Shown here piece after piece: positions 1,341 to 27,957 of a stretch of 64,000 nt of DNA. Both the position numbers and the translations under genes were made by a program. Source of the stretch: Actinacidiphila epipremni (GTDB taxonomy: Bacteria > Actinomycetota > Actinomycetes > Streptomycetales > Streptomycetaceae). How positions within the stretch are numbered: position 1 is the stretch's first letter; each line of letters starts with the position of its first letter. The stretch is taken from assembly GCF_012034175.1 (NCBI RefSeq), contig NZ_JAATEJ010000001.1, forward strand, positions 372,001 to 436,000, read 5' to 3'. The notes under the pieces were generated by a model that saw only the letters and a list, made by a program, of their open reading frames with translations, ran no database searches and was not told the DNA's origin.

Positions 1341-2615
1341 ATGGGAAATGGGACCTCCGCCGTGGTGGACGCGGCTCAGCGCGCGAGGGTCGCGGCAGCG
1401 GACCTCGCACCGCTGGCCCGGGCAACAAAAGACGCGGCGTTGCACGCCATCGCCGCCGCCCTGGAAAACCGCACCGCCGAGCTCGTCTCGGCGAACGCCG
1501 ACGACGTCGCGCGGGCGGCCGACGCCGGCACGAGCCCGGCGATCGTCGACCGCCTCACCCTCACCGCGGAGCGCATCGCCGCGATCGCCGCCGACGTGCG
1601 CCACGTCGCCGGGCTCCCCGACCCCGTGGGAGAGGTGTTGCGCGGGTCCACCCTGCCGAACGGCCTGGATCTGCGCCAGGTCCGGGTCCCCCTCGGCGTC
1701 GTCGGCATCATCTACGAGGCCCGGCCGAACGTCACCGTGGACGCCGCCGCCCTGTGCCTGAAGTCCGGCAACGCCGTCCTGCTGCGCGGCTCCTCCTCCG
1801 CGTACTCCTCCAACACCGCCCTGGTCGCCGTGCTGCGTGACGCGATCGCCGCCGCGGGCCTGCCCGCCGACGCCGTGCAGCTCGTCCCGGGCGAGTCCCG
1901 CGACTCCGTCACCGAGCTGATGCGCGCCCGCGGCCTGGTGGACGTGCTGATCCCGCGCGGCGGCGCCTCCCTGATCCGTACCGTCGTCGAGGGCTCCACC
2001 GTGCCCGTGATCGAGACCGGCACCGGCAACTGCCACGTGTACGTGGACGCCGCCGCCGACATCGACATGGCCGTGGACATCCTGGTCAATTCCAAGGCCC
2101 AGCGCCCGAGCGTGTGCAACGCCGCCGAGACGCTGCTGGTGCACCGCGACATCGCCGCCCGCTTCCTGCCGCGCGCCCTGGACGCGCTCGCCGACGCCGG
2201 CGTCACGGTGCACGGCGACCCCGCCGTGCTGGCCGCCGCCGAGGCGTCCGGCACCAAGGCCGCCGTCATCGCGGCGACCGACGAGGACTGGGCGACGGAG
2301 TATCTGTCGTACGACCTCGCCGCCGCCGTGGTGGACTCGCTGGACGCCGCGGTCGCCCACATCCGCCGCTGGTCCTCCGGGCACACCGAGGCGATCGTGA
2401 CGTCCTCGCAGCCCGCCGCCCGCCGCTTCACCCAGCTGGTCGACGCGGCGGCGGTGATGGTGAACGCCTCGACGCGCTTCACCGACGGCGGCCAGTTCGG
2501 CTTCGGCGCCGAGATCGGCATCTCCACCCAGAAGCTGCACGCCCGCGGCCCCATGGGACTGCCGGAGCTGACGTCCACCAAGTTCGTCGTCACCGGCGAC
2601 GGCCACACCCGCTGA
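1341..2615 (+). CDS. proA: Glutamate-5-semialdehyde dehydrogenase
   Basis: A 424-residue gamma-glutamyl phosphate reductase, the NADPH-dependent second step of proline synthesis. It shows the ALDH-superfamily features of ProA: a [20 protein letters not shown] block, a cofactor segment with [18 protein letters not shown], the [14 protein letters not shown] strand, and the catalytic cysteine in [15 protein letters not shown]. The C-terminus carries the conserved [14 protein letters not shown]. The length is normal. The ATG at 1341 follows a GAGGGT ribosome binding site. It acts in the cytosol on the product of the proB gene at the window edge. Confidence 0.97.
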
Positions 2616-2727
2616 CCTGCGACGGGCGCCCGCAGGCCGGGCGCTGGGCCATCCGGGTGCACAGCCGGCACACAGGCGACCGGGATTCCCCTGCCCAAAG
2701 GGCCAACTTCCGCATTACTCTGGACAG

Positions 2728-3162
2728 ATGCCGGACGATGACGAATTCGCCTCCGTAGTCCTCGACGAAGAATTCGTACGGTCTGCCCTGTTCCACGAGC
2801 CCACGGCCCGGGAACGGATGCTCGCCGTCGCCGAAGGTCCCGCGCTGCCGCCCGGCTGGCCCGGACGGCGCAGAAACGCGCGCGCCGACATCCCCGAGAC
2901 CGTCGACGCCGCGGACTTCCCCGCGCTCGACCCCCTCTACGCCGCCGGCCATCCGTACCGCGGCAGCAGCACCCGCTGGCACCGGCCGGTGGCCTGGGCG
3001 CTCGCCGTGGTGATGGGGATCGGCGTGGTCGCCCTGACCTTCGCCGCCGTCTACCGCGGCGCGGGCGCGGGTGCCCGGCAGCCCGCGGACCCGCCGCCGT
3101 CCAGCGGCAGCCAGCTCGGCCGGCAGACCCTGCCGCCGGTCGCCAGCACCCCTGTGCCCTGA
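2728..3162 (+). CDS. Small membrane protein, SCO2584-like (spore-wall related)
   Basis: A 144-residue single-pass protein. A cytoplasmic N-terminal region of about 85 residues begins with a DEFASVVLDEEFVR motif and an ARER motif. One membrane segment follows at about residues 88-110 (WALAVVMGIGVVALTF), then a proline/serine-rich exported tail. By gene order after proA it matches S. coelicolor SCO2584, which I recall as a partner of the MreB spore-wall synthesis complex; that link is synteny plus memory. The downstream protein shares the same N-terminal motif, so the two look like paralogues. No strong ribosome binding site is visible before ATG 2728. Confidence 0.8.
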   Translation: MPDDDEFASVVLDEEFVRSALFHEPTARERMLAVAEGPALPPGWPGRRRNARADIPETVDAADFPALDPLYAAGHPYRGSSTRWHRPVAWALAVVMGIGVVALTFAAVYRGAGAGARQPADPPPSSGSQLGRQTLPPVASTPVP

Positions 3163-21382: not shown

Positions 21383-21913
21383 CCTCCTCCGACCCACCGC
21401 GCCGCCCGGCCTACCGCGCCGCCCGGCCCGCCTGCCGCCCGCCGCGCTGCCCCGACCTGCTGCCTGGCCTGGTGCGCTGCCCGGCCCTCCGCCTGGCCCG
21501 GCTTGCTCTTGGCGTGCCTGGCTGGCCCGCCGCCCGGGGTGGCGCCGGCGCGCTGCATGGCCTGGCGCCCGAAGTGGCTCCCGCCCGTTGCCTGGCCTGG
21601 CCCGATGCCAGTCCTGCGCCTGGTCTGGCCGGCTGCCCGGCCCGTCTGGCGGCCCATCGCCAGGGATGGCGCCTGGCCCACCTTTCGCGTGCCGCCCGGC
21701 ATGGCCGACCGCTTGGCCCGCCGGTGAGGTCCCGACGCCGGTTTGGGGACCCGGCCCGAGGGTTGCCAGCGTCCGGAGGCAGGTCCGCCAGGGTCGGCGC
21801 CCCGGCGCCGCACGCGGTGATTCCCCCTGGTCAGGACCACCTGAGCGAAAGTTATCCACAGGTTGCGGACCAAGATCATCGCGGTGGACGCCGCGCGGTC
21901 CACGATGATCGGT
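21383..21913. repeat. GC-rich degenerate repeats upstream of comEA
   Basis: About 350 bases (21400-21730) consist of degenerate repeats of GCCTGGCC(C/T)G and CTGCCCGGCC, with no gene on either strand that has a ribosome binding site. The last 180 bases are less biased. They contain TTATCCACA (21852-21860), a perfect DnaA-box-like nonamer, and an imperfect inverted repeat, GATCATCG...GTCCACGATGATC (21874-21910), directly before the comEA start. Confidence 0.6.
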
Positions 21914-24067
21914 ATGAACGCATCGACGCCTTCCGAGCCCAGGTTCCCCCGCCCTCGTGCCGCACTGACCCGCGAGCGCGCGGCTGCCCTCTTCCCGCAC
22001 CTCACCTTCACCCCCCTGCACGAAAAGCCCCGCCCACCGGCCCCACCCCCGGACGCACCACATACCCCTGCCCCGGCGCCCCCGGTCCCTTGCGCCCTCC
22101 CGGATGCATCACATGCCCCTGCCCCGCCCCCGGCGCCCCCTGCCCTCTCGGGCGCACCGCATGCCCCCGTGCCGCCCCCGGCGTCCCCCTTCCTCCGCGT
22201 CCTCCATGGCGGCCTCGCGGTCTCCGCCCCGCCCGAGCGGAAGCCCGGCCCCTCCCGCAGCTCGACCTCCTGGCCACCGCACCACCCCTCCCTCCGCGCC
22301 CGGACCACACCCCCACCACGCCGCCCCGCGGTGTTCCCATGCCCGGACCAGCCCGTACCCCCGACCCCCGAACCGCCGCACGAGCGCCCGTCCCCACCAT
22401 CGCCAACCCTCACGGTCGCCCGGCTGCCTGAGGCCCCGTCGCAGGTGATGCAGCCGAGCACGGTTGCCCCGCCGCCCGCACCACCGCCGGTGCGGTTGCC
22501 CGGCCCCGCGGCCGGTGCGCAGGCGACGCCGTCGCACGGCCTCGCGAACGTCCCCGAGTTGGCGCCGTACCTGGGGTCACCTCGTCGGCTGGCGGTGTTC
22601 CCGTGCCCGGACGAGCAGGTGCGTTCGGCGCCTGAGCCGGTACGGGAGGGTCCGGGGTCGCCGTTGCCGTTGTTGGGTGTGAGGTCCGAACCGCGGGTGA
22701 TGGCGCCGAGCGCGGATGCCTCGCAGCCCGTGCCACCGCCGGCGGTGTTGCCCGGCCCTGCGGCCGGGGCGCAGGAGTTGCCGCCGCGCGGGCTCGCGGT
22801 CGCCCCTGAGCCCGTGTCGCCTCCGAGGTCACCTCGTCGGCCGGCGGTGTTCCCGTGCCCGGACGAGCAGGTGCGTTCGGGGCCGGGACCGGTACGGGAG
22901 GGTGGTCCGGAGACGCCGCTGCCGGGTGTGACGTCCGAACCGCGGGTGATGGCGACGGGCGCGGTTGTCTCGCCGCCCGTGCCACCGCCGGCGGTGTTGC
23001 CCGGTTCGCAGACCACTCCGCCGGACGGGCTCGCGGTTGTCGCCGGGGCCGCGCCGTCCCTGAGGCCACCGCGCCGGCCCGGGGTGTTCCCGCTGCCGGA
23101 GGGGTCGGTTGCCGTGCCGGTCGAAACGCCGGGCCGTTCCGCCGCGGAGGCGGCGCCGAGCTCACCGGGCGGTTCCGCTGGCTTCGCCAGGCCCGCGGCT
23201 CACGCGCAGGCTGCGCTGGCCGGTTCCGCCGCGCTGACCTCCGAGGCTGCACTGCCCGGCCTCGGCACCTATCCGGCGCGGGAATTGCTGACGTCGGCGG
23301 TCGACTCCGTGCCGGTGCGGGCCCTCAACCCATCCGGTGGCCCCAAGCGTTATCCGCCCTCCGCGGCGGAGTCCGCCGATTCGGCCTCCGCGGGGGCAGG
23401 CGACCTCGCCGTTCAACCCGCCGCCGTGGGGCGGCTGGCCGCAGCGCGCACGTGGCTGATGCTGCGATGCGGGCTGGAGCTGCGGACCGTCGTGGCGCTC
23501 ACCGTCGTGCTCGTGGCGGCAACCGGTCTCGCCGTACGGCATTACGTCGCGGGCCGGCCGCACACCGTCGCCGTCCCCGCAGCCCTCCCGAGCCTCGCCC
23601 CGGCCCACTCCTCCGCCCCGCGGCCCAGCCTGACCATCGACATCGCCGGCAAGGTGGCCCACCCGGGCCTACGCAAGCTTCCGCCCGGCTCCCGCGTCGC
23701 CGACGCCTTGGCCGCCGCCGGCGGATCCCTCCCGGGCGCCGACACGACCTCCCTCAACCTCGCCCGACCCCTCACGGACGGCGAGCAACTCCTGGTGGGC
23801 CAGCCACCGCCCGCCGACACCGCCACCTCCGGCTCCGCCGGAATCGGCACCGGCACCGGCACCGGCGCGGGCGCCACACCCCTGAGCCTCAACTCCGCGA
23901 CGGCGCCCCAACTGGACGCCCTCCCCGGAGTGGGCCCCGTGCTGGCCCAGCACATCATCGACTACCGGACCGAACACGGCGGCTTCACGACCCTTCAGCA
24001 ACTGCGCCAAGTGCCCGGCATCGGCGACCGCAAATTCTCCAGCCTCAAGTCCTTGGTCCACCTATGA
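21914..24067 (+). CDS. comEA: ComEA-type DNA-binding competence protein with long proline-rich repeat N-terminus
   Basis: A roughly 717-residue protein. The C-terminal third is a normal ComEA: a transmembrane helix (about residues 522-545, VVALTVVLVAATGLAV), an SLBB-like domain (IDIAGKVAHPGLRKLPPG) and helix-hairpin-helix repeats (LNSATAPQLDALPGVGP, LRQVPGIGDRKF) that bind DNA. The preceding 500 residues are cytoplasmic, extremely proline-rich, and contain about four 79-88-residue repeats around RRPAVFPCPDEQVR. Family members are usually near 300 residues. The start is uncertain: ATG 21914 and ATG 21905 both sit in a hairpin without a clear ribosome site. It overlaps comEC by 4 bases. Confidence 0.85.
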   Translation: MNASTPSEPRFPRPRAALTRERAAALFPHLTFTPLHEKPRPPAPPPDAPHTPAPAPPVPCALPDASHAPAPPPAPPALSGAPHAPVPPPASPFLRVLHGGLAVSAPPERKPGPSRSSTSWPPHHPSLRARTTPPPRRPAVFPCPDQPVPPTPEPPHERPSPPSPTLTVARLPEAPSQVMQPSTVAPPPAPPPVRLPGPAAGAQATPSHGLANVPELAPYLGSPRRLAVFPCPDEQVRSAPEPVREGPGSPLPLLGVRSEPRVMAPSADASQPVPPPAVLPGPAAGAQELPPRGLAVAPEPVSPPRSPRRPAVFPCPDEQVRSGPGPVREGGPETPLPGVTSEPRVMATGAVVSPPVPPPAVLPGSQTTPPDGLAVVAGAAPSLRPPRRPGVFPLPEGSVAVPVETPGRSAAEAAPSSPGGSAGFARPAAHAQAALAGSAALTSEAALPGLGTYPARELLTSAVDSVPVRALNPSGGPKRYPPSAAESADSASAGAGDLAVQPAAVGRLAAARTWLMLRCGLELRTVVALTVVLVAATGLAVRHYVAGRPHTVAVPAALPSLAPAHSSAPRPSLTIDIAGKVAHPGLRKLPPGSRVADALAAAGGSLPGADTTSLNLARPLTDGEQLLVGQPPPADTATSGSAGIGTGTGTGAGATPLSLNSATAPQLDALPGVGPVLAQHIIDYRTEHGGFTTLQQLRQVPGIGDRKFSSLKSLVHL
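22331..23110 (+). repeat. In-frame 237-264-bp repeats in comEA
   Basis: The segment beginning GTGTTCCC recurs at 22331, 22595, 22847 and 23084, spaced 264, 252 and 237 bases apart, all multiples of three. Units 2 and 3 are the most alike and share long blocks, for example TCCGAACCGCGGGTGATGGC and CCACCGCCGGCGGTGTTGCC. The repeats encode a proline-rich segment in the cytoplasmic region. Confidence 0.9.
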
Positions 24068-24423
24068 GCAGGTTCACGTCCACCCCTAAGGGGTCGCAGG
24101 AGGCGGGTGCGCGCGGCAACTCGGTGCGTGGCGGTGCCGCCTCGCGCTTGGACGCGTCGAACCCAGAGCCCCAAGCCCCTGGTCCACCCATGAGCAGGTC
24201 CACGTCCGCCTCCGAGGGGTCGCAGGCCGCGGCACGCGCCGGGGCCACCTTGCACCTGGGTGCGTCGAGCGCAGAGCCCCAAGTCCCTGGTCCACCTACG
24301 ACCGGGGCCAGGCCCACCCCTGAGGGGCCGCAAAGCGTGGCGGACGCAAGCGGCAACCCGGCGCTTGCCGGGGCCACCTCGCGCCCGGGCGTATCGGACC
24401 CGCGGCCTCAAGCACCCGGCCCA
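24055..24423 (+). repeat. Tandem duplication of the comEA-comEC junction
   Basis: The GGTCCACC(T/C)ATGAGCAGG junction sequence at 24055 recurs at 24181, then degenerately at 24289 and 24418. The spacings of 126, 108 and 129 bases are all multiples of three. Each unit carries the (C/T)C(T/C)(G/A)AGGGG(T/C)CGCA block as well. The first unit contains the real gene junction; later units are read as the comEC N-terminus. Confidence 0.9.
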
Positions 24424-27072
24424 CCCGCGACCACGCCCATGGCCCAAGCGGCGGGCCCGGGCCGCAACCCCGTGCACGCCAAGGCCGCGTCCCGGCTGGG
24501 CGCGTCGAACCCTCGCCAGGACGGTCCGCCCGACCTGCGGCTCGTGCCGCCGGCCCTTGCCGCCTGGGCCGCGGCAGCCCTGACGCCCGCCGTCGGGGCG
24601 ACGGTTCTGCTCCTGGCCACCGCAGCGGCAGCCGCGGCCCTCACCGCCACGTTCGCCCTCACCCGCACCCGAAGGAGGAAGCCCAAGCCCATTCACGCCG
24701 GCCCAGCGCCCGGCCCCGCGTCCAGCCCCGCCACCGCCCCCGCGACCGGCCTCGCGGTGACCGCCGCGGCCACCCTCCTGACGGTCGCGGCAGCCACCCT
24801 CGCCGCCGCGCTCGCGGACGCCGACCGCCACCGCGGCCCCATCCCACGCCTCGCCGCCCACCGGGCCACCGTCGAGCTCGACCTGCGGATCACCTCGGAC
24901 CCCACCCTCACCCGCTCCAGAGCCCCCGCCCCGGCGTGGAAGGCATCCACGGAAGCCGCCCGCGCCGAGCCCGCCGAGCCCGCCGCCCCCGCCGGCAACG
25001 ACGCAGCCCCCGGCATGGTCATCGTGCCCGCGGAAGCCCTCCAGCTCGGCAAGGAAAAGATCCGCACGCCCGTGCTCGTCCTCGCCGACGCCGACCTCCC
25101 CACCTGGCAGCACCTGCTGCCCTCAACCACCCTGCGCCTCACCGCCCGCCTGGCGCCGGCCGACCGCCCGGGGGACTCCGTCGCCGCGGTGCTGCGCCCC
25201 ACGGGGGCGCCCCGCGTCATCGGGCCACCCTCCACGGCCCAGCGCGTCGCCGCCCGCTTCCGCAGCGGCCTGCGGACGGCGAGCGCCGGGCTCCCGCCGG
25301 ACGCCCGCGGGCTGCTGCCCGGACTGGTGACCGGCGACACCGCCGGCCTTGAGTCCGACCTCAAGGACGCCTTCCGGGCCACGGACCTCGCGCACCTCAC
25401 CTCAGTAAGTGGCGCGAACCTCACCATCGTGCTGCTCCTGCTCATCGGCCCGCCGGCCGAGGCGATCAGGGCCGAGCGCCGCGGACTGGCCGGGGCGCTG
25501 GGCATCCCGCTGCGGATCACCGCGGTGCTGGGGGCCGCGCTGACGGGCGCGTTCGTGTTGGTGTGCCGGCCGGGCCCGAGCGTGGTGCGGGCCGCCGCCT
25601 GCGGGCTGATCACGCTGCTGGCGATCGCGACCGGCCGCCGCCGCTCGCTGCTGCCCGCCCTCGCCGGCGCGGTGCTGCTCCTGGTGCTCTACGACCCACC
25701 CGTCGCCCGTTCCTACGGCTTCGCGCTCTCCGTCCTGGCCACCGGCTCCCTGCTGACGCTCGCCCCGCGCTGGAGCGCGGCCCTGCGCGCCCGCCGGGTG
25801 CCGGCGCGGCTCGCGGAGGCGCTGGCCGCGGCGGGGGCGGCGCAGGCGGCGTGCGGGCCGCTGATCGTGGTGCTGTCGGCGCGGCTCAGCCTGGTCGGCG
25901 TGCCCTGCAACCTGCTGGCGGAGCCCGCGGTCGCGCCGGCGACGGTGCTCGGCTTCTGCGCCCTCGCGGTCGCGCCCCTCACGCCCGCCGCCGCGGCAGC
26001 GCTCGCATGGGCGGCGGGCTGGCCGACGCGGTGGATCGTGACGGTGGCCCGGCATGGCGCGGCCCTGCCCTGGGCGGAGATCGGCTGGCCCGCGGGCTGG
26101 GCGGGCGCGGCCCTGCTCACGACGCTGACGGTGGCCCTCGCGGCGGGCGGCGCCCGGGCGCTGGGCGTGCTCGTGGTCCGGCCCTGGGCGGTGTGCGCGG
26201 CGGCGCTGCTCCTGCTGCTGGCGCTGGTGCGTCCGCTGCCGCTGCCGCTGCCCGGCGGGGTGACGGCCCGCTGGCCGCCGGCGCAGTGGCGGTTCGCGAT
26301 GTGCGACGTCGGGCAGGGCGACGCGCTCGCGCTTTCCGCGGGGCCGGGCAGCGCGGTGGTGGTGGACACCGGCCCGGATCCGGAGCTGGCCGACCGCTGC
26401 CTGCGGCGGCTGCGGGTCACAGCGATCCCGCTGCTGGTCCTCACCCACTTCCACGCCGACCATGCGGACGGGCTGCCGGGCGTGCTGCACGGCCGCCGGG
26501 TGGGCGCGATCGAGACGACGGTGCTGGACGAGCCCGCGGGGGAGGCCGCGCGGGTACGCCGGGAGGCCGCGGCGGCGGGCGTGCCGCTGCTGCGGGCGAG
26601 CGTGGGGGAGGAGCGCACGGTGGGCCCGCTGAGCTGGCGCGTGCTGTGGCCGCCACCGACGGCCGACGCCCTCCCGGACGACGACCCGAACGACGCGAGC
26701 GTGGCCATGCTGGTCCGCACCGGCTCCCTGACCCTCCTGCTCGCGGGCGACCTGGGACCCGCAGCCCAGGAGGAGATCCTGGCGGCGGACCCGGGCCTCC
26801 CGCGGGTCGACGTGCTGAAGGTCGCCCACCATGGCAGCGCCTACCAGTCCCCGGCGTTCCTGGCCCGCCTCCACCCCCGGCTGGCCCTGGTCTCCGTGGG
26901 CCTCCACAACTCCTACGGCCACCCGTCCCCGCGCACCCTGACCGCCCTGCGCGCCCTGGGCGCGACCGTCCTGCGCACCGACACGTCCGGTTCCCTCGCC
27001 CTCACCACCACCGCCCCCACCCCCCCCGCCGGCCCACCCACCCTCCACACCTCCCTGACCGGCCCGCAATGA
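24064..27072 (+). CDS. comEC: ComEC/Rec2-type DNA uptake channel with repeat-expanded N-terminus
   Basis: A 1002-residue membrane protein for DNA transport. Residues 1-160 are a disordered, cytoplasmic, repeat-derived extension. Next come the N-terminal membrane segments and OB-like domain, the competence domain with many helices (TSVSGANLTIVLLLL, ARSYGFALSVLATGSLL), and a C-terminal metallo-beta-lactamase domain with DVGQGDALAL and LTHFHADHADG intact. The start at 24064 overlaps the comEA stop as ATGA. A second ATG at 24190 lies in a duplicated copy of the same junction, so the true start is ambiguous. It may not provide natural competence; the role in Streptomyces is unclear. Confidence 0.92.
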   Translation: MSRFTSTPKGSQEAGARGNSVRGGAASRLDASNPEPQAPGPPMSRSTSASEGSQAAARAGATLHLGASSAEPQVPGPPTTGARPTPEGPQSVADASGNPALAGATSRPGVSDPRPQAPGPPATTPMAQAAGPGRNPVHAKAASRLGASNPRQDGPPDLRLVPPALAAWAAAALTPAVGATVLLLATAAAAAALTATFALTRTRRRKPKPIHAGPAPGPASSPATAPATGLAVTAAATLLTVAAATLAAALADADRHRGPIPRLAAHRATVELDLRITSDPTLTRSRAPAPAWKASTEAARAEPAEPAAPAGNDAAPGMVIVPAEALQLGKEKIRTPVLVLADADLPTWQHLLPSTTLRLTARLAPADRPGDSVAAVLRPTGAPRVIGPPSTAQRVAARFRSGLRTASAGLPPDARGLLPGLVTGDTAGLESDLKDAFRATDLAHLTSVSGANLTIVLLLLIGPPAEAIRAERRGLAGALGIPLRITAVLGAALTGAFVLVCRPGPSVVRAAACGLITLLAIATGRRRSLLPALAGAVLLLVLYDPPVARSYGFALSVLATGSLLTLAPRWSAALRARRVPARLAEALAAAGAAQAACGPLIVVLSARLSLVGVPCNLLAEPAVAPATVLGFCALAVAPLTPAAAAALAWAAGWPTRWIVTVARHGAALPWAEIGWPAGWAGAALLTTLTVALAAGGARALGVLVVRPWAVCAAALLLLLALVRPLPLPLPGGVTARWPPAQWRFAMCDVGQGDALALSAGPGSAVVVDTGPDPELADRCLRRLRVTAIPLLVLTHFHADHADGLPGVLHGRRVGAIETTVLDEPAGEAARVRREAAAAGVPLLRASVGEERTVGPLSWRVLWPPPTADALPDDDPNDASVAMLVRTGSLTLLLAGDLGPAAQEEILAADPGLPRVDVLKVAHHGSAYQSPAFLARLHPRLALVSVGLHNSYGHPSPRTLTALRALGATVLRTDTSGSLALTTTAPTPPAGPPTLHTSLTGPQ

Positions 27073-27104
27073 CCCGCCCCCGCCGCGACCCACTTGGAGG
27101 TCCC

Positions 27105-27194
27105 ATGCCCGACCCCACCACCGAGCCGACCACGCCGTGTGCCGGTATCGCGTCCGGCAGGGCGGGGGCTGGCGGATGGCTCATGAGCATCTGA
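27105..27194 (+). CDS. Possible 29-residue small protein after comEC
   Basis: A short frame (MPDPTTEPTTPCAG...) starts 32 bases after the comEC stop and has an excellent TTGGAGG site 4-5 bases before the ATG. It has no recognisable domain and ends just before the ArsR operator. The strong ribosome site argues for translation. It could also be the remnant of a lost gene, since it lies exactly where the accessory block begins. Confidence 0.3.
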   Translation: MPDPTTEPTTPCAGIASGRAGAGGWLMSI

Positions 27195-27216
27195 GCGGGT
27201 GATCCGCTGCGGCCCG

Positions 27217-27258
27217 AGCTATCTAAAGAAAGCTTGCTAAAGAATCCTTTAGATAGCT
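27217..27258. promoter_or_regulatory. Operator palindromes for the ArsR-type regulator
   Basis: A perfect 12-base inverted repeat, AGCTATCTAAAG (27217-27228) and CTTTAGATAGCT (27247-27258), spans an inner repeat CTAAAG-AATC-CTTTAG (27237-27252). The AT-rich block is striking in this GC-rich context and sits directly before the regulator start, covering the likely promoter. It is the obvious autoregulatory site. Confidence 0.8.
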
Positions 27259-27264
27259 ACCGTG

Positions 27265-27957
27265 ATGCGCATGGAGCAGAAGCGGCCCTTCCCGGACCAG
27301 GTGCATCTCAGTGACCCGCGGGCGTTGCGGGCGTATGCGCATCCGACGCGGATGGCGTTGGTCGGGCTGCTGCGGGTGGAGGGGCCGTTCACGGCGACGC
27401 GGGCGGCGGAGCTGACGGGGGAGTCCGTCGCCAGTTGCTCGTACCATCTGCGGATACTCGCCAAGTACGGGCTCGTGGCGGAGGCGGAGCCCGGGGCGGG
27501 TGGGCGGGAGAAGCCGTGGCGGGCGACGGCGGCGTACACGGACTGGCCGAACTACTCGGAGGACCCGGCGGTCGCCTCGGCTGCGGAGGCGCTGAGCGTC
27601 GCGGTCGCGGAGAACCAGTTCCACCGGATGATGCGGGCGCTGGAGCGGCGGCACACGCTGCCGCCGCAGTGGCAGCGGGCCGAGCGGCACTCGGACGCGA
27701 TCCTCTACCTCACCCCGGAGGAGCTCGTCGCGATCGGGGAGCGGATCGACGCGGTGATCGCCGAGTACGCCGACCGCGGCCTCGACCCGACCCTCCGCCC
27801 CCAGGGCGCCCGCCGGGTCGCGTACCTCCAGGTCGCCTACGTCGCCCCCGAACAAGGCCCGGGCCAGCACCCCGCACCGGCCCCGGAAGCAGCCCCCGAA
27901 CCGGCCCCCGAACCAACCCCCGCGCCGGAGGCCGGGTCGGCGGAGGGGGAGCGGTGA
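27265..27957 (+). CDS. ArsR-like helix-turn-helix regulator
   Basis: A 230-residue regulator. A winged helix-turn-helix lies at about residues 15-90 (YAHPTRMALVGLLRVEGPFTA, ASCSYHLRILAKYGLV), followed by a helical domain and a Pro/Ala/Glu-rich tail. GTG 27262, ATG 27265 and ATG 27271 are all possible starts; none has a ribosome site, so translation is probably leaderless. It overlaps the MFS gene by 4 bases (GTGA) and is presumably a repressor of the pair, released by an exporter substrate. Confidence 0.9.
   Translation: MRMEQKRPFPDQVHLSDPRALRAYAHPTRMALVGLLRVEGPFTATRAAELTGESVASCSYHLRILAKYGLVAEAEPGAGGREKPWRATAAYTDWPNYSEDPAVASAAEALSVAVAENQFHRMMRALERRHTLPPQWQRAERHSDAILYLTPEELVAIGERIDAVIAEYADRGLDPTLRPQGARRVAYLQVAYVAPEQGPGQHPAPAPEAAPEPAPEPTPAPEAGSAEGER

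Follow-up and report, generated by a model that had tools for sequence, protein, structure and literature searches.

Probable growth of the ComEC N-terminus by in-frame tandem duplication across the comEA-comEC stop-start overlap in Actinacidiphila epipremni

The comEC gene of Actinacidiphila epipremni carries four diverged repeating units, head to tail and in frame within its single open reading frame, and each unit joins the end of the neighbouring gene comEA to the beginning of comEC. We analysed a window of 64,000 nt (contig NZ_JAATEJ010000001.1, positions 372,001 to 436,000; coordinates below are positions in this window, and features are on the plus strand unless marked otherwise). The comparison of units and relatives indicated that the segment running from the comEA tail to a conserved anchor motif was very probably duplicated in tandem and in frame more than once, lengthening the N-terminal head of ComEC, and that the result is most likely a largely neutral extension, predicted to be disordered. 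The array is known from one A. epipremni genome, and the comparisons were made with other species, whose heads differ.

The gene comEA (21863..24067) was identified from its open reading frame and from Pfam matches to SLBB, HHH_3 and HHH (helix-hairpin-helix), with the Pfam scan of the product run from an in-frame start at 21917. The gene comEC (24064..27072) encodes 1002 aa counted from the ATGA start, and its product contained the Competence transmembrane domain (PF03772, E 8.7e-39, residues 421-693) and the C-terminal metallo-beta-lactamase-like domain (PF00753, E 9e-10, residues 749-927). The structure model also had a beta-rich domain at about residues 269-390, a candidate for the N-terminal OB fold of ComEC/Rec2, which was mostly of high confidence, weak at about 281-320 and without a Pfam match. 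The two genes overlap at an ATGA (24064..24067), in which the comEC ATG begins at 24064 and the comEA stop TGA occupies 24065-24067. The comEC frame was also open for about 1.2 kb upstream of this start, through comEA (22855-24063 of an ORF at 22855-27072), so an in-frame copy of the junction can be read through. An Rfam scan of 21500-27500 gave no match at gathering scores. comEA itself has a long N-terminal extension with its own tandem repeats, which formed four copies at 22314-23128 with spacings of 264, 252 and 237 nt; its open frame of 740 codons was the longest among 32 loci of the genus, the others having 286-530 codons (that of L051 is cut by a contig end). In the comEA extensions one weak repeat lag (454, 28/36, in L028) was not divisible by three.

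The initial annotation had reported that the junction around the comEA stop and comEC start recurs at 24181 and, in decayed form, at 24289 and 24418, with spacings of 126, 108 and 129 nt that keep the frame, and our analysis agreed with this. The junction string GGTCCACC(T/C)ATGAGCAGG starts at 24055 and 24181, and the decayed copies are at the two positions given. An independent repeat search and the alignment of the units both placed four diverged units at 24040-24513 with the same three spacings, and all the copies lie within the comEC open frame. When the 49-nt junction was compared with its three internal copies, 39/49, 35/49 and 28/49 positions were identical. None of 2000 dinucleotide shuffles scored above 28, a value that the first two internal copies clearly pass and the third only equals, so the third was not significant alone. 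The 28 nt that code for comEA gave the same picture (20, 21 and 18 of 28, best shuffle 19), that is, the comEA-tail copy in unit 4 was not significant on its own. The third copy was accepted because of its place within the array and not for its own score. At E <= 0.001 the 701-nt stretch 23900-24600 matched nowhere else in the genome. The array was absent from the Tandem Repeats Finder output at a score of 30 or more, which is expected for units so diverged.

Alignment showed that every unit has the same order of parts, namely 24 nt of comEA tail, ATGA or its remnant, the comEC head, and a closing motif whose last residues are SNP, intact or decayed. A unit therefore comprises 24 nt from the end of comEA and the complete N-terminal head of comEC with its conserved anchor motif, and is larger than the junction segment that had first been described as duplicated. 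Tandem duplication itself was supported; the unit opens 24 nt ahead of the comEC ATG, takes in the anchor and recurs every 108-129 nt. Unit 1 (24040..24165) consists of the real comEA tail (24040-24063) and a comEC head copy ending in VRGGAASRLDASNP. Unit 2 (24166..24273) begins with a comEA-tail copy read as EPQAPGPP, followed by a head copy with the former start ATG at 24190. In unit 3 (24274..24402) the tail copy is read as EPQVPGPP, and the former start before the head copy is now ACG (24298). Unit 4 (24403..24513) has a tail copy read as RPQAPGPP and what appears to be the ancestral comEC head, the former start now being GCG (24427). The tail copies are read in a frame other than that of comEA, with the pattern xPQ(A/V)PGPP, and they contribute about 8 codons per unit, the remainder being copies of the head of comEC itself.

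The conserved anchor VHAKAASRLGASNPRQDGPPDLR (24472..24540) ends the head in relatives, where this VHAAAASRLGASNPRQEGPPDLRL-like motif directly precedes the ComEC body. In the comEC frame, the anchors of units 1-3 matched the sister consensus at 29, 26 and 30 of 42 positions, and that of unit 4 at 35/42. On this best match we take unit 4 to be the ancestral N-terminus, in front of which about 121 residues (363 nt) have apparently been added. The extension was earlier put at about 160 residues made of junction copies; an added and predicted disordered part is indeed there, but it comes to about 121 residues and is mostly copies of the comEC head.

To place the array among relatives, 35 genomes of the genus were searched, which gave 32 loci (G015 had no match; G032, at a contig end, and G009, with comEA and comEC matches on separate stretches, were left out). 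An ATGA or GTGA overlap of comEA and comEC in the comEC frame was present at 30/32 of these loci. The exceptions were L057 and L058, from two related species, in which a GTGA overlap is out of the comEC frame; in L058 a single stop also interrupts the head, so its start must be further downstream. From other genera of the family, 39 of 51 loci were kept after 12 without a usable comEA or comEC match were dropped, and the overlap was found at 27/39, the other 12/39 having no -1 overlap by the start call used. The distance from the start to the DLRL motif was about 155 residues in the window and at most 66 (median 35) in those 27 loci with the overlap. Among the genus loci, head length up to the anchor ranged from 7 to 331 residues. 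In the tree, the window grouped with L026-L032 (100/100), with L026 as its sister there (93/86, below the starred level).

Of the 31 other genus loci looked at, 27 had heads long enough for a 36-nt query and were testable, and none of these had a detectable junction copy in comEC although they possess the comEA tail. Their best query match was 16-21/36, against 30/36 in the window, and the shuffle value was at least 0.22 in all 23 of the 27 loci that were given one. Long heads without strong repeats do occur in homologues (L038, L042, L043, L054), an outcome that had been foreseen as evidence against duplication; their sequences differ from the window head, and they do not explain its repeats. 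The head of L039 (331 residues) has a different, unrelated tandem array, in which the repeat lags are 147 and 156 nt. We also scanned 325 mechanical ATGA/GTGA ORF pairs from the window and 85 loci for downstream junction copies, and the pairs above 26/36 were the window junction (30), two pairs in L071 (36 and 34) and one in L096 (32). The matches in L071, which is from another genus, sit inside 208-nt tandem arrays found by Tandem Repeats Finder (1258-2167 and 2538-3153), and the L096 match has a similar shift of 206.

These comparisons support the comEA tail as the source of the tail copies. The duplicated segment would have taken in the final 24 nt of comEA, the comEC start codon and the head with its conserved anchor. 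Since the ATGA overlap is shared and the comEC frame is open across the comEA tail, an in-frame duplication of this kind would spare comEA and renew the comEC start: comEA would stay whole, a fresh comEC start would stand at its stop, and the old start and the copied comEA tail would turn into internal codons. Slippage or short-homology recombination may have been the cause. The live start would have remained at the comEA stop, so that successive events copied the comEA-proximal junction, and translation from 24064 may proceed by termination-reinitiation. Superseded starts would be free to decay. The product would be a disordered, near-neutral head that precedes the first membrane helix and is kept only in frame.

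From 5' to 3' the former starts read ATG, ACG and GCG, which is in line with decay that grows with distance from comEA. The order of duplication events that we infer from this also draws on five tail sites at which this comEA differs from the majority base of the sisters (the sister base was identical in 7/7 at four sites and in 6/7 at one). Unit 2 carried the sister base at 3 of these sites, unit 3 at 2 and unit 4 at 4. A sixth tail site was not counted because the sisters divide 5:2 there; at that site every unit agrees with this comEA. Over the whole 30-nt tail, the sister/own matches were 25/25 for unit 2, 23/25 for unit 3 and 22/20 for unit 4, so the units are about equally close to this comEA and to the sisters, and the evidence for the order of events is modest. 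The ATG at 24190 had been proposed as a second start context. The codon is there, but nothing supports its use: the comEA stop lies 123 nt upstream with none adjoining, no ribosome-binding site was seen by eye within 20 nt, and the codon is gone from the copies that follow. Without a comEA stop to feed termination-reinitiation and without a visible ribosome-binding site, it is a likeness only.

The array is most likely a tolerated, largely neutral expansion before the first membrane helix. The AF2 model had no structure over residues 1-136 (pLDDT 32-40), which is weak proof of disorder because the AF2 alignment held only 5 sequences; a short helix in the anchor region, at residues 137-144, was drawn with low confidence. 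The head is rich in Pro, Ala, Gly and Ser, and order-promoting residues make up 0.09 of it and 0.30 of the body. The dN/dS estimates between units were 0.50-1.20 over 30-41 codons, that is, mildly constrained to neutral. Together these data fit a loosely constrained linker that is predicted to be disordered. The head could instead be a selected tether or binding region of variable length, for example one that spaces ComEC from cytoplasmic partners, with adaptive variation in length, and the long heads of unlike sequence in several lineages, all in frame, would suit such a role. We consider this unlikely in view of the same dN/dS estimates and of the 10/32 loci that have heads of just 7-33 residues. 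In addition, Kitasatospora L-forms from which comEA and comEC had been deleted showed unchanged DNA uptake (PMC9500057), so on that account the role of the pathway in this family is unproven, which also speaks against selection on a tether.

The comEC heads look like coding sequence. In the 30 in-frame loci, the comEC frame had 0 stops in 3079 head codons, the other two frames had 21 and 32, and 26.5 were expected from shuffles; over all 32 loci there was 1 stop in the comEC frame, that of L058. All 28 of 28 strong repeat lags (30/36 or more, comEC heads only), found in 10 comEC heads, were multiples of three, and lags within one head are not independent. In our judgement the repeats are quite unlikely to be an untranslated spacer after comEA, a reading in which high GC alone would keep the frame open and comEC would start close to the anchor (at ATG 24439 or GTG 24472). 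Chance open frames are common at high GC, no Shine-Dalgarno sequence was seen by eye before ATG 24064, the amino-acid divergence among units is little constrained, the GC3 of the head (0.80) is below that of the body (0.95) and marks a weaker coding character, and two species have an overlap that does not share the comEC frame. However, a spacer would not readily account for the absence of stops from one frame only, for repeat lags that keep to threes or for an overlap that is in frame at nearly all genus loci.

We also considered a dispersed GC-rich element with the core GGGGCGCGGGGAACNGCGCG, of which this genome has 167 exact copies and none of the reversed control. The core was found in 26/35 genus genomes with no reversed-control matches, and in 40/61 genomes of the family sample with one control match, in one genome. 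In the window it occurs at 1000, 1106 (minus strand) and 47580. In G001 and G003 many of the listed copies form inverted pairs about 105-110 nt apart, which have a REPIN-like look only. The 16-base core had no match in the open-licence PMC literature searched. Of the 28 comEC heads tested (4 heads under 60 nt were left out), 8 had the element inside the open frame, namely all seven sisters L026-L032 and, separately, L035. With the element in every sister head and so abundant in this genome, the window repeats might be copies of it, but this origin was rejected as highly improbable, since the shuffle scores gave no trace of it in the window head: 336/500 shuffles scored as high against the genomic element, 90/500 and 451/500 against two sister comEC units, and 132/200 when the test was repeated. 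Element number and head length were correlated (Spearman 0.46, p 0.008, n=32); clades confound this correlation in the tree, and no conclusion was drawn. Finally, the chance that the array is an assembly error or a chance GC-rich likeness is next to negligible even in a draft of 100 contigs, because none of the 2000 shuffles reached the first two copies and the units differ pairwise by 24-34 substitutions, the longest exact string common to two of them being 13 nt, which makes read collapse or misjoining unlikely.

If the head grew by in-frame duplication as proposed, the locus is a readable record of the growth of a protein end, in which the ancestral start, its two successors and the start that is probably live today stand in a row and in graded decay, and part of each unit would be new protein sequence obtained by reading the neighbouring gene in a different frame. 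For annotators it means that length cannot set ComEC start sites in this genus. It is also a concrete system in which to ask whether stop-start overlaps favour N-terminal growth. We offer only as a doubtful possibility that such overlaps act as a one-way ratchet. Were this true, each in-frame duplication across ATGA would spare the upstream gene and displace the downstream start upstream by the length of a unit, the 3' end of the neighbour would become new protein when read in another frame, and this genus would offer a natural laboratory at comEC, where junction copies, the dispersed element and private repeats feed one tolerant site.

By their domains, the genes here are the same as the ComEA-ComEC DNA uptake genes, with SLBB/HhH in ComEA and Competence plus metallo-beta-lactamase in ComEC, in the domain order given in PMC12455585. 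Termination-reinitiation often couples the two genes of an overlapping pair (Huber et al. 2019, PMC6728339). By its widely kept stop-start overlap comEA-comEC belongs to the ATGA-overlap class, and a similar coupling may be supposed by analogy. Rickettsia palindromic elements lie in protein-coding genes (Ogata et al., summarised in PMC10969869). The sister species resemble them in having a dispersed element inside the comEC open frame, the likeness being one of position in an open frame; the window units, with their one match in the genome, differ from such elements, and from the GGGGCGCGGGGAACNGCGCG element, in not being dispersed. Narrow search terms in the open-licence PMC literature gave no report of tandem duplication with ATGA overlaps or with N-terminal extension. 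The closest known class is that of intragenic tandem repeats in disordered regions, with which the array shares tandem, in-frame, diverging units in a region predicted to be disordered. It differs from them in that the unit spans a stop-start overlap and takes part of its sequence from the 3' end of the neighbour in another frame, and in that each event would re-create the start codon upstream. The array is a form of intragenic tandem repetition, probably neutral in effect and set apart by crossing the overlap between two genes.
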